Positions 1,984-36,808 of a DNA stretch of 36,808 bases are shown in pieces. The position numbers and the translations under genes are program-made. The notes below the pieces were generated by a model. The model was not told the origin of the DNA. It saw nothing but the letters and a program-made list of their open reading frames with translations, and made no database searches. The stretch covers positions 1 to 36,808 of IMG/VR virus record IMGVR_UViG_3300038566_000123. One strand, given 5' to 3'. Position 1 is the first letter of the stretch. Each line of letters starts with the position of its first letter. The DNA is from a virus.

Positions 1984-4266
1984 ATGGCAGTATCAATGAT
2001 TGGCCCTAAGTTTTACGCTTGGGACCGCGACGGAAAACCTCTGGCCTTCGGTAAGCTTTACACTTACCAGGCTAGAACAAACACACCTAAACCAACTTAC
2101 CAGTCAGAAGATCAGGTTGTTGAAAATACAAATCCTGTAATATTGAATGGTGAGGGTTATGCTAACGTTTATCTTGATGGTGCCTATAAAATGGTACTTA
2201 AAGATGATAAAGAAAATGAAATATGGAGTGCTGACCCGGTAACATCAAACAAGGTCGATGAATGGGTTAATTGTTTTACAGTGACATACGCCAGTTCATC
2301 TTCATTTAAAATTGGTGGCAATGTAACAACTGAATATGAAATAGGGCGAAGAGTAAGGATTGACAACAATACATCTAACTATTCTTACTCAACAATACAG
2401 ACGTCTTCTTATGTTGCTGGTGAAACAACTGTTGTTGTTGGTGATCCAGTTGTAACTACTGGCGTTGTTGGGGCTTGTACTTCTATCGTTGGGCCAGAGT
2501 CTTTGAGTATATCCAATTCCGTTATTTATTTTGACGATGTTGAAGAGGCAATAAATAGCACTAGGCTTAGTGTTCTTGGAGGTCAAGTTTTAAATATTGG
2601 TGGGTATGAAAGCAAAGGCGATTCAGGAAAGGCTACTTGGTACACCGTTCTCGTTGGCACAATATCAGATAACGGCGTAAATAAAAGGGCTTGTGTTGGC
2701 GTTCCAGGATTAGCTATTGTTCGCAGAGAAACCATAGATATAAACCCTAAAATCTCATTTGTTTTTGATGATGCTTGGAATTCAACTTTAGGTGATTTAA
2801 AAACATTGTTTGACGCAAGAGGCTATAAACTTGCTGCTGCTATTCCTATTGGGAGCCTTGGTAACCCTAACAGACTCAAAATAAACGACATACCTAAGCT
2901 ACAACAAGCAGGGTTTGAGGTTATTAATCATAATGTTTCTGGTGATGTTGCGAACACAGCTAGTTACGGACAAGCCAAAATAAGAGCAGAAGTACAAACG
3001 TGTAATTCAGCATTAAATGCCGTTGGTGTTGATCCTGTTGGTTTTCAAGCGCCAAGCTCTACTATGAATGACGAGTATTTAAACGAGGTTGCTCGCGTTT
3101 GTCCGTTTGCATTTACTGTTGATTCAAAATTAACACCGATAATCAAAGGGCAAAATCCGCTAAAATTGCATAGATATTCGATAGAGGGTAACACAGAACA
3201 AGCGTGTTCTGATGCGGTAGATCTTGTTGCTAAGGTTGGTGGAACTATTGTTTTTTACGCTCACGATATAGCAACTGATGACTCAAACTATGACAAGATA
3301 GTTGCCATTATGGATAGAGCCGAAGAATTAGCGGTTGTTGATATTGTTTCTGTATCTGAAAGTATTAAAGCGGTTACAGAAGTGCCACAAAAAGCACAGC
3401 ATTGGTTTAGTGGGGATTTAATCGATAACGACCCGAATGTATTTAAGGCTAGCGGTGACTCAACAATAAGTGTTAGTAATGTGAGTGACGTTTATGTTAC
3501 CGCTAATGTGGTTCAGCAAACGCTAGTACAAGCGACCTTTGATTTACCAAGTGATATAACCAATGGTGAATTAATCACATTCAGCGCAGCACTAAGATCT
3601 ATATCAGGAACCTTCGGAACTAATAACACTATAGGCATTCAGCTAAAAGATGCAGGTAACACAGTTTTATATTCTGACGAAATAGTAGGTGGAACATTAA
3701 ACACTGCTTATCCACGTTACAATGTATCAGCAGTCATGGTGAATGCTGCGGTGAAAGCTACTGTATTTATGCGGGTAGATGCTACCAGCATAGGTGCTCA
3801 AGCTTTAATTAGGAACCCTGTTTTGAGGTTTGGGAATGACGTTAACTATGAAGTATTTACTTCTGAATCAATGTCCATAACAACAAGTATAATTCCAGCT
3901 CAAACTTTAGCTCACAGCTCACAGCAAACGCTAACGCTAACAGATGAAGTTGATAACGGAAGATACAAGATAGAAAGCAATCAACTAATAATAACTAGCG
4001 ATTGGGAAGGTAGCTTGCATGGTACTCTGTCTGGCGTTCAACAAGATACATCGGGTGGTTATATCGCTTGGTTACTTTCTGGTGGTGGCGGTGGATCTGT
4101 AGCCATTGCAACACTAAACACCAATAACGGGACAAGTTACGGGTGTTCATCTATCGCTGGTAAATTTATAAAAGGCGCTTCATTCACTCTTATTTGCCAA
4201 CCTTACGCTGTTGATTTTAATGTATCATCGTCAATAGCTAGAATAACGTCATTAGGTAAGGCTTAA
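1984..4266 (+). CDS. Tailspike with NodB-like polysaccharide deacetylase domain
   Basis: This 760-residue receptor-binding protein probably recognises and modifies surface polysaccharide. The ATG at 1984 follows GGAG with good spacing; the open frame further upstream only overlaps the giant gene. Residues 1-90 (KFYAWDRDGKPLAFGKLYTY, then NTNPVILNGEGYANVYLDG) match the conserved virion-attachment module of podovirus spikes. Residues about 255-450 look like a carbohydrate esterase 4 (NodB) fold: FDDAW at 261-265, NH at 315-316, QAP at 355-357 and YAHD at 425-428. The usual second metal-binding His of the H-x3-H motif appears to be missing (HNVSG). The C-terminal 300 residues are beta-rich and Ser/Thr/Val-rich, probably trimerisation or carbohydrate binding. 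The last 15 bases overlap the end of the convergent NinG gene. Confidence 0.85.
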   Translation: MAVSMIGPKFYAWDRDGKPLAFGKLYTYQARTNTPKPTYQSEDQVVENTNPVILNGEGYANVYLDGAYKMVLKDDKENEIWSADPVTSNKVDEWVNCFTVTYASSSSFKIGGNVTTEYEIGRRVRIDNNTSNYSYSTIQTSSYVAGETTVVVGDPVVTTGVVGACTSIVGPESLSISNSVIYFDDVEEAINSTRLSVLGGQVLNIGGYESKGDSGKATWYTVLVGTISDNGVNKRACVGVPGLAIVRRETIDINPKISFVFDDAWNSTLGDLKTLFDARGYKLAAAIPIGSLGNPNRLKINDIPKLQQAGFEVINHNVSGDVANTASYGQAKIRAEVQTCNSALNAVGVDPVGFQAPSSTMNDEYLNEVARVCPFAFTVDSKLTPIIKGQNPLKLHRYSIEGNTEQACSDAVDLVAKVGGTIVFYAHDIATDDSNYDKIVAIMDRAEELAVVDIVSVSESIKAVTEVPQKAQHWFSGDLIDNDPNVFKASGDSTISVSNVSDVYVTANVVQQTLVQATFDLPSDITNGELITFSAALRSISGTFGTNNTIGIQLKDAGNTVLYSDEIVGGTLNTAYPRYNVSAVMVNAAVKATVFMRVDATSIGAQALIRNPVLRFGNDVNYEVFTSESMSITTSIIPAQTLAHSSQQTLTLTDEVDNGRYKIESNQLIITSDWEGSLHGTLSGVQQDTSGGYIAWLLSGGGGGSVAIATLNTNNGTSYGCSSIAGKFIKGASFTLICQPYAVDFNVSSSIARITSLGKA

Positions 4267-4923
4267 CCTTTTAGCATAATGCCGGGCGCGTCTTGAGAAT
4301 ATTTTCTTGACGCGCTTTAGGTATTCAATATCTCCCTTCTTTAGATCAATGTCATTGTTGCTTTCAAGATATTCGACTTTAACAATGCCAATTTTTTCAA
4401 TTAAGTTTATTCGATAGTTAGCGTCAACGGTTGCCGCTTTAGCTGAAAACCTACCGCCACCACCGTTACAAGATTTACATTGCTTGTGCACGTTAAACAA
4501 AACAAACCTGAGCTGACCTTTAGCGCCTCGCGTCATAAAGTGACCAGCGTCCCAACAACCGCCAACTTTCCATCCTTGTTCAGCCTCAATTAATTCCCTT
4601 GGCTTTAAGCACGATATACAAGGCTGATCATAATCTCTAAGGCGAATGTATTTGTTAAAAGCCGCTTGAGCTTCAGACAACCATTTTGACTTAGGCTTTA
4701 TTGCTTCCTTCTGCTCCCTGTGAAGCTTTCTAGCGTCCTTTTCTTTTTTGACTTGCGATTGCTTAGCTTTTGTTATTTGCTTTTGTTTATGCTTCGCCTG
4801 CTTATCCTGAGCAAATAAAACAGCGTGATCATGACAACAAAACCACGCCAAAGGTGTTTTAATGCCTTCTTCAGCAAGTTTGTATTCACCGCAATGCTTA
4901 CACTTCCGTTTTGAATTTGCCAT
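4252..4923 (-). CDS. ninG: NinG/Rap-family recombination endonuclease
   Basis: This 223-residue protein is related to lambda NinG (Rap), a structure-specific nuclease that resolves D-loops and Holliday junctions in phage recombination. An N-terminal zinc knuckle (CKHC at 8-11, then CC at 29-30) is followed by a Lys/Gln-rich helical linker. The core contains CISC (102-105), GHFMTRGA (127-134) and QCKSCN (148-153), the HNH-like metal-binding pattern of the family. It is the promoter-distal gene of the leftward operon and converges with the tailspike, overlapping it by 15 bp. Together with the Erf and exonuclease genes of the rightward unit it completes a lambdoid-style recombination set. Family assignment is confident; the biochemical role is inferred from the family. 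Confidence 0.88.
   Translation of the reverse strand: MANSKRKCKHCGEYKLAEEGIKTPLAWFCCHDHAVLFAQDKQAKHKQKQITKAKQSQVKKEKDARKLHREQKEAIKPKSKWLSEAQAAFNKYIRLRDYDQPCISCLKPRELIEAEQGWKVGGCWDAGHFMTRGAKGQLRFVLFNVHKQCKSCNGGGGRFSAKAATVDANYRINLIEKIGIVKVEYLESNNDIDLKKGDIEYLKRVKKIFSRRARHYAKRLSLT
4286..4320 (+). terminator. Hairpin after tailspike, inside ninG codons (candidate late terminator)
   Basis: GCGCGTC (4286-4292) pairs with GACGCGC (4309-4315), and inner GAGAA/TTCTT pairing extends the stem. A short TTTA follows on the plus strand. It begins 20 bases after the tailspike stop and lies within sense codons of the convergent ninG. The U tract is weak, so termination is possible but not established. Confidence 0.4.
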
Positions 4924-36400: not shown

Positions 36401-36808
36401 CACCGACAGAAGCGTGAAAACCTGATCCCTAAAGAAACTGCTAAAGAATGGGCTCGACTTGGTAAAGATTACCCGGTGTTTGAGTCTATCCAGAAAGAGT
36501 ATCAGCAGTTTAATGATCGCATGATGGACTTTTACGAAGAAGCTGGAATGATTACACCTGAAGGCCGTAAAACCATGCAGTCAATGAATAAAGACTATGT
36601 TCCTTTCAACCGTATCCGTGATCAGCTTGCTGGTGGTAAAGGTGCGGCTAGTGCTGGTTTCCAAAAGCTTAAAGGTGGCACCGCTAACTTGAATGATATT
36701 TTGGTGAACATTCAGGATGGTATAACGGCCAACGTCCGATCGGCATTAAACAACCGAGCTAAGCAGCGACTTTATCAATACATATCAGGCCATAAAGACG
36801 GGGCAATT
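30464..36808 (+). CDS. Giant polyvalent ejection-type protein, N-terminal part (continues at 24-1982)
   Basis: It starts at GTG 30464, eight bases after AGGAG, and stays open to the window end. Joined over the 77-bp overlap it totals 2742 residues. Seen in order: an N-terminal motif (FIKNFRAENPVYDDMPDDQL), Gly/Ala-rich hydrophobic helices (about 120-400), a DdrB-like ParB domain with SGRHR at 553-557, charged Lys/Glu/Ala linkers, a domain with GGYYSSYSKGDAIPGFQF (about 1160-1180), a methyltransferase with VLEPSAGKG (1487-1495) and NPPF (1549-1552), a zincin-like peptidase with HEMAH (1743-1747) and downstream EGFAEFVRLWL, then an LPD38-type C-terminus. It occupies the P22 gp16 place. Phage polyvalent proteins are thought to be injected with DNA and counter host defence; that role is inferred here. 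Confidence 0.9.
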   Translation, partial: MSDFIKNFRAENPVYDDMPDDQLVTALHNKYYSDIPVEQFNQKIGFQVAPIDPVVSDPVAEQEPGLIAQPRPQEPVAPMTGYGSSSDIPIQQQEPIPPQPVDGFTGTAMKAPEEQSMLELVSGKLKNWGAGAGERAGDVGGALLQTIETVGSGLEQKFPMGGLVWEDGDIIPSVLGPEEWAKREAKPILTKGADVLKGIDLGYQEKVGWEDVKKSFSEGGPLSGSAYADVLEYGIEQGVKSVPDMVAAITALPAYIFARSGEIGEQRAQNKGKESAELEDVLEAAPFAVAASLLERIGAKGITQAGKEEIGKEILKAGILNSTKRVAAAGGKAMTKEAATEAIQEGMIEYVGERYGTDVAMDWKEALDQAAAGAVAGGVFGGTGGGVMATANEINYSPEKVIAKQLEKDIEATDVAGTEQAAIEALSPEQAQMQQEQKPQQKQELRAKEVQAKPEAVKPVVKQEFEIDKAQATEQEPVALELPEEKPVKQQIVGKEVVEAPIEEITISEDVPQFKEGANVKGVVEPLGGKFERTGAAPVQIWVREDGRKEVISGRHRLDLAERSGEKTIPAQYHYESEGFGADQAAVLDAMLNIREGQGKVKDYVDFIKATKPRKQEAESQGILARQTGKRAFTIATEGSDALITSHRNDQLTDEAATRIAEAAPRNEALQAVGIKAIQEGKTIAVAENMVKAVKTMTDETAQQSGDLFGFDDSAMVEAENLAKAAVKKQNEIQKTLSAVQGAAKRPELAAKEGVDVKNPEAIKARIAELKEQKRDWQNWHTNPKLTQELKAQPEKAVTDEKPAITEEAKAPAPEQTAQPLPKEKDTFTNWNAKDSEGGPSEQSFTRGEYAKAVKSDSKGTFFDGGEIEGISQAKQQAKIKGVWHDFGSIVKADKPEPVKKPTKPMSEVVESVSKKKGKGLTDADKVPAPKADYATEPAQAYRSFMESVANQTATVSEIKADAESLVKNKDAIIAKMSDRKFTKAMLQEITHSPRSDLKKPQMVKSAYERMLAAHVMGDATFTIFGGSKTYEQQMMEKINKQTQADIDAAYEKQREYRAQMKQRKDEFVKSLSNPETLPEFKEFIRVRGKDKMSPEQLAAYDELVAESMAEVKPEVIKAEAEAVTTERAQTKHTKTGADLFVVKMVGRVPKEQFRELSGKAKQLGGYYSSYSKGDAIPGFQFKTVEAADQFEQLLSGKDVDKSDFAEAKAEVKQSKNADKLLNMAEKMEAKATEEINRPRQSNTARRASMAANATERAEKQLALAKTVRNIAVKLQEGEVKHLGQMSQVTQLEELISIQNRAIPNDLYEQGSFDGYSINRPLKEGVTVEDYIANVKYPSLEVYGSNMKSLSEKLSGKKGFMRISKEILKLPSAKARGDWKVLTDAQYKKLYEAVKIGFINEYDIGGYAVDRHKTIGRLEKLGIKTEEQLRAAIRELDSLRVAKRQEDPVKKLERDLVGKKIEGFFPTPTPLVDQMIDYADIKPGHEVLEPSAGKGNIADQIMVSAPDASLDVVEYNTSLASLLEVKGYNVVGNDFLEYSGKQYDRIVMNPPFENFQDIDHVKHAYDLLKPGGKLVAIMGAGVKNSRKKAVEFREWLDDAGSYIEDLPEGSFKGSERSTGVNTVMVTIEKNDTNTLNYKKDDSKVSPTPKDGERVFHAPGHNFIGMFRSTGIPERREFVTIEGRKVKIPENPQRIEPIMSKLIKITGRRIYFGKIKGKSAEGFYRPNVGEIRTRRKNDVEVLAHEMAHYLDVYSNITLPNFQKLYKDPKYSSEVAALSYTDADPKIEKIEGFAEFVRLWLTNANEAQLRAPKFYDAFTNELARDRKLLNPMRDMQDLMHKFYFQGPDKLGQALIGQDVSFKQRFNEWAYRRDSRIRQQVIDRFHAARKVEQELTRKIGTVEESAWKQFRIANGGAEGIADYILNYGTVQFDEKGDLKRSGKSLHEVMEPVKTIKLKPEHKGDQKIDLLMRYFAGRRALELHRQKRENLIPKETAKEWARLGKDYPVFESIQKEYQQFNDRMMDFYEEAGMITPEGRKTMQSMNKDYVPFNRIRDQLAGGKGAASAGFQKLKGGTANLNDILVNIQDGITANVRSALNNRAKQRLYQYISGHKDGAI
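36732..36808. repeat. Right copy of 77-bp terminal overlap
   Basis: Identical to 22-98 and in the same codon phase of the giant gene. Trimming one copy together with the primer tag yields a circular genome of 36,710 bp. Confidence 0.93.

Follow-up and report, generated by a model that had tools for sequence, protein, structure and literature searches.

Genomic context

The window, by which we mean the whole viral stretch of 36,808 nucleotides analysed here, carries a tailspike gene whose neighbours occupy 30464-1982 (across the contig ends) and 4252-4923 (Table 1). In the window as in sister phages, the spike gene is flanked on one side by the gene of a giant methylase-like virion protein and on the other by NinG, which lies on the opposite strand. 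A longer open reading frame overlapping the spike gene opens at 1798. We rejected this start in favour of 1984, because the adaptor homologues begin with MAV(S/A)MIGPKFYAW, as the spike itself does when read from 1984, because the spacing to the upstream gene, a gap of a single base, is kept in most sister phages, and because a Shine-Dalgarno-like AGGAG lies ahead of the ATG.

Relatives of the N-terminal adaptor are found in Thalassomonas phage BA3, in Vibrio crassostreae phages and other Vibrio phages, and in viral contigs, and a Shewanella phage X14 protein shares 55% identity with spike residues 1-261. The adaptor also resembles the solved tail spike N-terminal domain 9vyg. Both the adaptor and the gene position are conserved with Bocovirus/BA3-type podoviral tailspikes, and most likely the protein serves as receptor-binding tailspike in a podovirus of the type represented by Bocovirus X14, Thalassomonas BA3 and Vibrio phages, a bacterial virus that is probably marine. 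The first-pass annotation, made from the letters alone, had already called it a tailspike, and adaptor and gene slot together bear this out.

The giant virion protein belongs to phrog_15406, comprises methyltransferase and LPD38 regions and is interrupted by the contig ends (30464-36808 and 3-1982). The window starts with GTTTCCCAGTCACGATC, which we take to be a random-PCR (SISPA) primer tag, and its bases from about 22 onward duplicate the final ~77 bases (1-98 and 36732-36808). Such a terminal repeat predicts an overlap between the two parts of the giant protein, which is indeed found in the phrog_15406 profile (1931 and 1906). Given the repeat, we probably have a complete genome that could be closed into a circle, its start bearing a primer artefact.

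Table 1. Features of the tailspike gene and its product, with positions in the window
Feature	Residues	Position	Strand	Basis
Tailspike gene, 760 aa		1984..4266	+	ORF translation; adaptor homologues; AGGAG before ATG
N-terminal virion adaptor	1-173	1984..2502	+	67-76% identity to Vibrio/Thalassomonas phages and viral contigs; phrog_26190
Linker/pre-catalytic domain	174-253	2503..2742	+	Partly alignable with Shewanella X14 and Vibrio 1.211.A (to 260-261)
NodB domain	about 254-465	2743..3378	+	Pfam; phage-NodB profile; fold
C-terminal region	466-760	3379..4263	+	No database match
Motif 1, FDDAW 261-265: expected general base and expected metal ligand	D262, D263	2767..2772	+	Conservation
Motif 2, NHNVSG 315-320: first His, expected metal ligand	H316	2929..2931	+	Conserved in 19/19
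Canonical second-His position of H-x3-H	G320	2941..2943	+	Translation; alignment
Candidate substitute ligand at H316+5	D321	2944..2946	+	Spacing of second His in some NodB2 proteins
Divergent motif 3, FQAPSS 354-359	A356-P357-S358-S359	3049..3060	+	Alignment
LHRYSI Arg, like LPR/LKR Arg of cellular NodB proteins	R397	3172..3174	+	Alignment
Motif 5, FYAHD (YAHD 425-428): expected general acid	H427	3262..3264	+	Conserved in 19/19

A NodB module in an exchange slot

What follows the adaptor differs between sister phages, several of which carry right-handed beta-helix/pectate-lyase-like modules, whereas Vibrio phage 1.211.A has a GDSL/SGNH esterase. This gene slot undergoes module exchange, with NodB here set against beta-helix or SGNH esterase in the sisters. 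Given the esterase of 1.211.A and the beta-helix modules of the other phages, the slot is used by polysaccharide-modifying modules, esterases included. In 1.211.A two neighbouring genes have GDSL/SGNH esterase domains, the first of them in the slot of the present spike (L064:3001-6564). In the spike itself Pfam gave no match to a GDSL/SGNH domain, and the fold is that of NodB instead.

The NodB assignment is marginal by Pfam when the whole protein is used: PF01522 matches residues 256-370 with 21.6 bits (E 2e-4), below its curated cut-off of 23.1 bits, which the domain alone exceeds with 24.3 bits. A profile built from 18 other NodB domains of phages and virus contigs, with the spike and its nearest relative left out, scores 73.9 bits on residues 256-462 (E 1.6e-21 in the set searched), whereas 2,000 shuffles reached at most 7.9 bits. 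The order of the motifs is thus far beyond chance; the first-pass annotation had listed FDDAW, NH, QAP and YAHD in CE4 order, and translation puts each of them where it had been read.

An AlphaFold2 model of residues 240-475 reached pLDDT 62 and pTM 0.59, a middling confidence that makes it usable at the level of the fold only; for the full-length spike the pLDDT was 32. Searched against the PDB with Foldseek, the domain model returned almost exclusively CE4 structures as top matches, in agreement with the NodB barrel proposed in the first-pass annotation, with fold Z scores of 13-15.8. The best was the HFTV1 turret protein (8qpg, 15.8), and others were the CE4 pseudoenzyme BA3943 (15.5), the acetylxylan esterase CtAxeA (2c71, 13.6) and PuuE (3cl6, 13.0). 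Among viral structure models, phage tail NodB proteins and HFTV1 matched the domain. Taking profile and predicted fold together, we regard the NodB identity as secure.

Searches of phages, Pfam and PHROGs with the region beyond the NodB domain (residues 466-760) found no match. The viral contigs searched contain no close relative of the whole spike that carries this NodB module, the plasmids and E. coli genomes searched contain no relatives, and the matches in 299 Listeria-phylum genomes were all weak. A DNA pattern for FDDAW[ND] matched mostly by chance, with NodB in L025, L028 and Listeria loci.

Active-site residues

Across other phage NodB domains D262 is conserved in 19/19 and D263 in 18/19, and the spike keeps both; together with H316 and H427 they are retained in spite of an identity of about 22%. 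The second motif 2 His is missing, as the first-pass annotation had pointed out from G320 at H316+4, and there is none at +5 or +7 either. With H-x3-H absent, we file the spike as a NodB-fold variant and not as a canonical CE4 enzyme; it does have the residue pattern of a dyad-metal CE4 domain, namely the DD pair, a single motif 2 His and the motif 5 His. Motif 3, where RxPxG or YPYG is expected, reads APSS, with the Pro kept and the following Gly changed to Ser.

A further candidate defect was considered at alignment column 377, where 18/19 phage domains have an Arg and the spike has Phe. We rejected it as a loss of the active-site Arg, because cellular NodB proteins have GFTT or AVTT in that column and take their Arg from LPR/LKR, which matches R397. 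This residue may supply the active-site Arg, as the LPR Arg does in cellular NodB proteins.

The second histidine in other phage NodB domains

The second His stands at +4 in the NodB proteins of Listeria, Bacillus phage G, Pseudomonas Amjad_SA and several prophages, and at +7, three residues later than usual, in Gordonia phages and Gorpy. A TM7 phage (HDTSN), two Arthrobacter phages (HHTAQ), the present spike (HNVSG) and the spike of the Manatee Spring podovirus (HSTNG) have none. By alignment, displacement or loss of this His recurs in the NodB domains of phage tails, and the spike is not unique in this respect. The H-x6-H of the Gordonia phages (L048, L049, L051-L055) is common to one clade that also includes L047 (support 99/97), and would give an unusual motif 2 loop.

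In a phylogenetic tree the spike pairs with the Manatee Spring spike (87/76), and the pair adjoins Pseudomonas phage Amjad_SA (97/98), a placement of the spike that is tentative given several long branches. Since the neighbouring Amjad_SA retains H-x3-H, the loss of the second His is probably derived and perhaps common to the pair, although the tree makes this a tentative conclusion. The Manatee Spring spike (MW202665 / L045; L004:1988-4045) combines H-x3-G with a Thr at the position of D263 and a Phe at that of D321; its motifs read VVVDTTD, HSTNG and YTHA, and there is a weak C1q-like match near its C-terminus. Its NodB domain is plausibly a binding pseudoenzyme, more decayed than the one described here.

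Discussion

How might a NodB domain short of one metal ligand serve a tailspike? We envision a scenario whereby the adaptor docks the spike to the virion, the spike would then bind an acetylated glycan on the host surface, and the NodB domain would strip acetyl groups from the surface polysaccharide while leaving the chain uncut. D262 would act as the base and H427 as the acid, and the D263-H316 dyad would hold a divalent metal, water (or D321) taking the place of the missing His in the manner of CtAxeA. A dyad of this kind should favour Co2+ or similar ions and retain Zn2+ poorly. The analysis shows the fold family, the conserved residues, the absent His and the exchange of modules in the slot; that the domain binds metal, is active and acts on this substrate, and that it is exposed on the virion, we infer. 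We assign a probability of roughly 0.5 to the reading that the spike has received, by exchange, a NodB-fold deacetylase module with a dyad-metal site.

The first-pass annotation had supposed that loss of the His would alter the metal site and might leave a domain for binding only. The His is indeed absent, but loss of the enzyme need not follow: CtAxeA is active, whereas no activity was detected for Bacteroides ovatus BoPDA, so that the missing His in itself neither abolishes nor proves function. That all other catalytic residues are kept speaks for an enzyme, and the further decay in the Manatee Spring relative favours a domain that is heading towards binding only. Against the dyad enzyme we also count the divergent motif 3 (APSS versus YPYG), the pLDDT of 62 for the domain model, the lack of detected activity in BoPDA, which has kept and lost the same residues, and the D263 to Thr change in the Manatee Spring spike.

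Several of these points lend weight to the possibility, somewhat less probable in our judgement, that the barrel is a lectin for acetylated host glycan in which acetyl hydrolysis has been lost. The closest relative (joined at 87/76) likewise lacks the second His and, in addition, the metal Asp; the presumed inactive BA0150 and the pseudoenzyme BA3943 are among the fold matches; and BoPDA, whose residue pattern is the same, was found to bind glycans while no activity could be detected (PMC11713874). Yet a fast-diverging spike has retained the base, the metal Asp and the first His of the metal site, and the acid His, and CtAxeA demonstrates that the same pattern can be active. Alternatively, the domain may be an active deacetylase whose metal is held by Asp263, His316 and Asp321. 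Histone deacetylases use Asp-His-Asp metal ligands, and the proposed site would place this ligand set on a NodB barrel. D321 lies at H316+5, where the second His stands in certain NodB2 proteins with H(T/S)X3H (PMC10967932); yadE, with HTHFLH, is an example. We consider this arrangement unlikely, as D321 is not common to the closest relative, which has Phe; no description of an Asp-His-Asp metal site on a NodB fold was found in the literature searched. Far less probable still is a metal-independent hydrolase of the PuuE allantoinase type: PuuE is a fold match (3cl6, Z 13.0) and is also without the second motif 2 His (PMC10967932), but it has neither motif 1 Asp, whereas the spike has both.

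Parts of this picture are already known. NodB domains in phage tails have been annotated (as 'glucosaminyl deacetylase' in Gordonia phages), the structure of a virion NodB domain has been solved and a dyad site has been published; a limited literature search found no description of a NodB tailspike. SGNH hydrolases rely on serine-based, metal-free chemistry. If the spike proved active, then phage spikes would use metal-dependent NodB deacetylases and not just SGNH esterases, and the three-residue metal site of the NodB fold would be loosely constrained in virion proteins. If it proved inactive, the spike and its closest relative would represent steps from an enzyme to a receptor lectin. Active or not, the domain warns that neither depolymerase nor classical CE4 enzyme is a safe annotation for such spikes.

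Comparison with known systems

Deacetylation in place of depolymerisation is an established strategy of G7C gp63.1 and Aristophanes-type spikes (PMC13123978, PMC11126041), and the present proposal shares it, on a NodB fold as opposed to the SGNH fold of G7C gp63.1. The first-pass annotation had drawn this parallel, which is fair for function and extends to nothing beyond it. An SGNH esterase is found in the same slot of Vibrio phage 1.211.A. NodB domains are likewise found in tail or virion proteins of Gordonia, Arthrobacter and TM7 phages and in gp673 of Bacillus phage G, but these do not have the adaptor in common with the spike, and their second His lies at +7 in Gordonia and at +4 in phage G. 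The HFTV1 turret head protein (8qpg), the best fold match, also has its NodB domain in a virion protein, exposed on the surface, with Zn2+ bound and proposed to modify host glycans (PMC12494034); it differs in being the capsid turret of an archaeal virus, not a tailspike, and in its occupied Zn2+ site (PMC12494034). Closest at the level of the domain is the Manatee Spring spike, which shares H-x3-G, a similarly divergent motif 3 and a C-terminal region beyond NodB, but has lost the metal Asp too, has another N-terminus and is 31% identical over the matched part.

Among cellular proteins, BoPDA is like the spike in missing the second motif 2 His, and in crystals Co2+, Ni2+, Cu2+ or Zn2+ is bound by its Asp-His dyad, with no activity found on chitin, xylan or pNPA (PMC11713874). 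On pNPA, CtAxeA is negative too (PMC11713874). BoPDA is a capsule biosynthesis protein with the CE4 domain inserted in a CBM (Pfam15421 family), unlike the spike. In CtAxeA of Clostridium thermocellum (CE4, 2C71/2C79) the second His is replaced by Tyr, and Co2+ is held by Asp and His with waters filling the vacant place; the enzyme is active on acetylxylan with Co2+ and much less so with Zn2+ (PMC6281622; see also PMC11713874). CtAxeA and the spike have in common the NodB fold, the base Asp, the metal Asp, one His and the acid His, and differ in that one is a cellulosomal acetylxylan esterase and the other a virion protein, with Tyr versus Gly at the position of the missing ligand and ~16% identity in the structural alignment.
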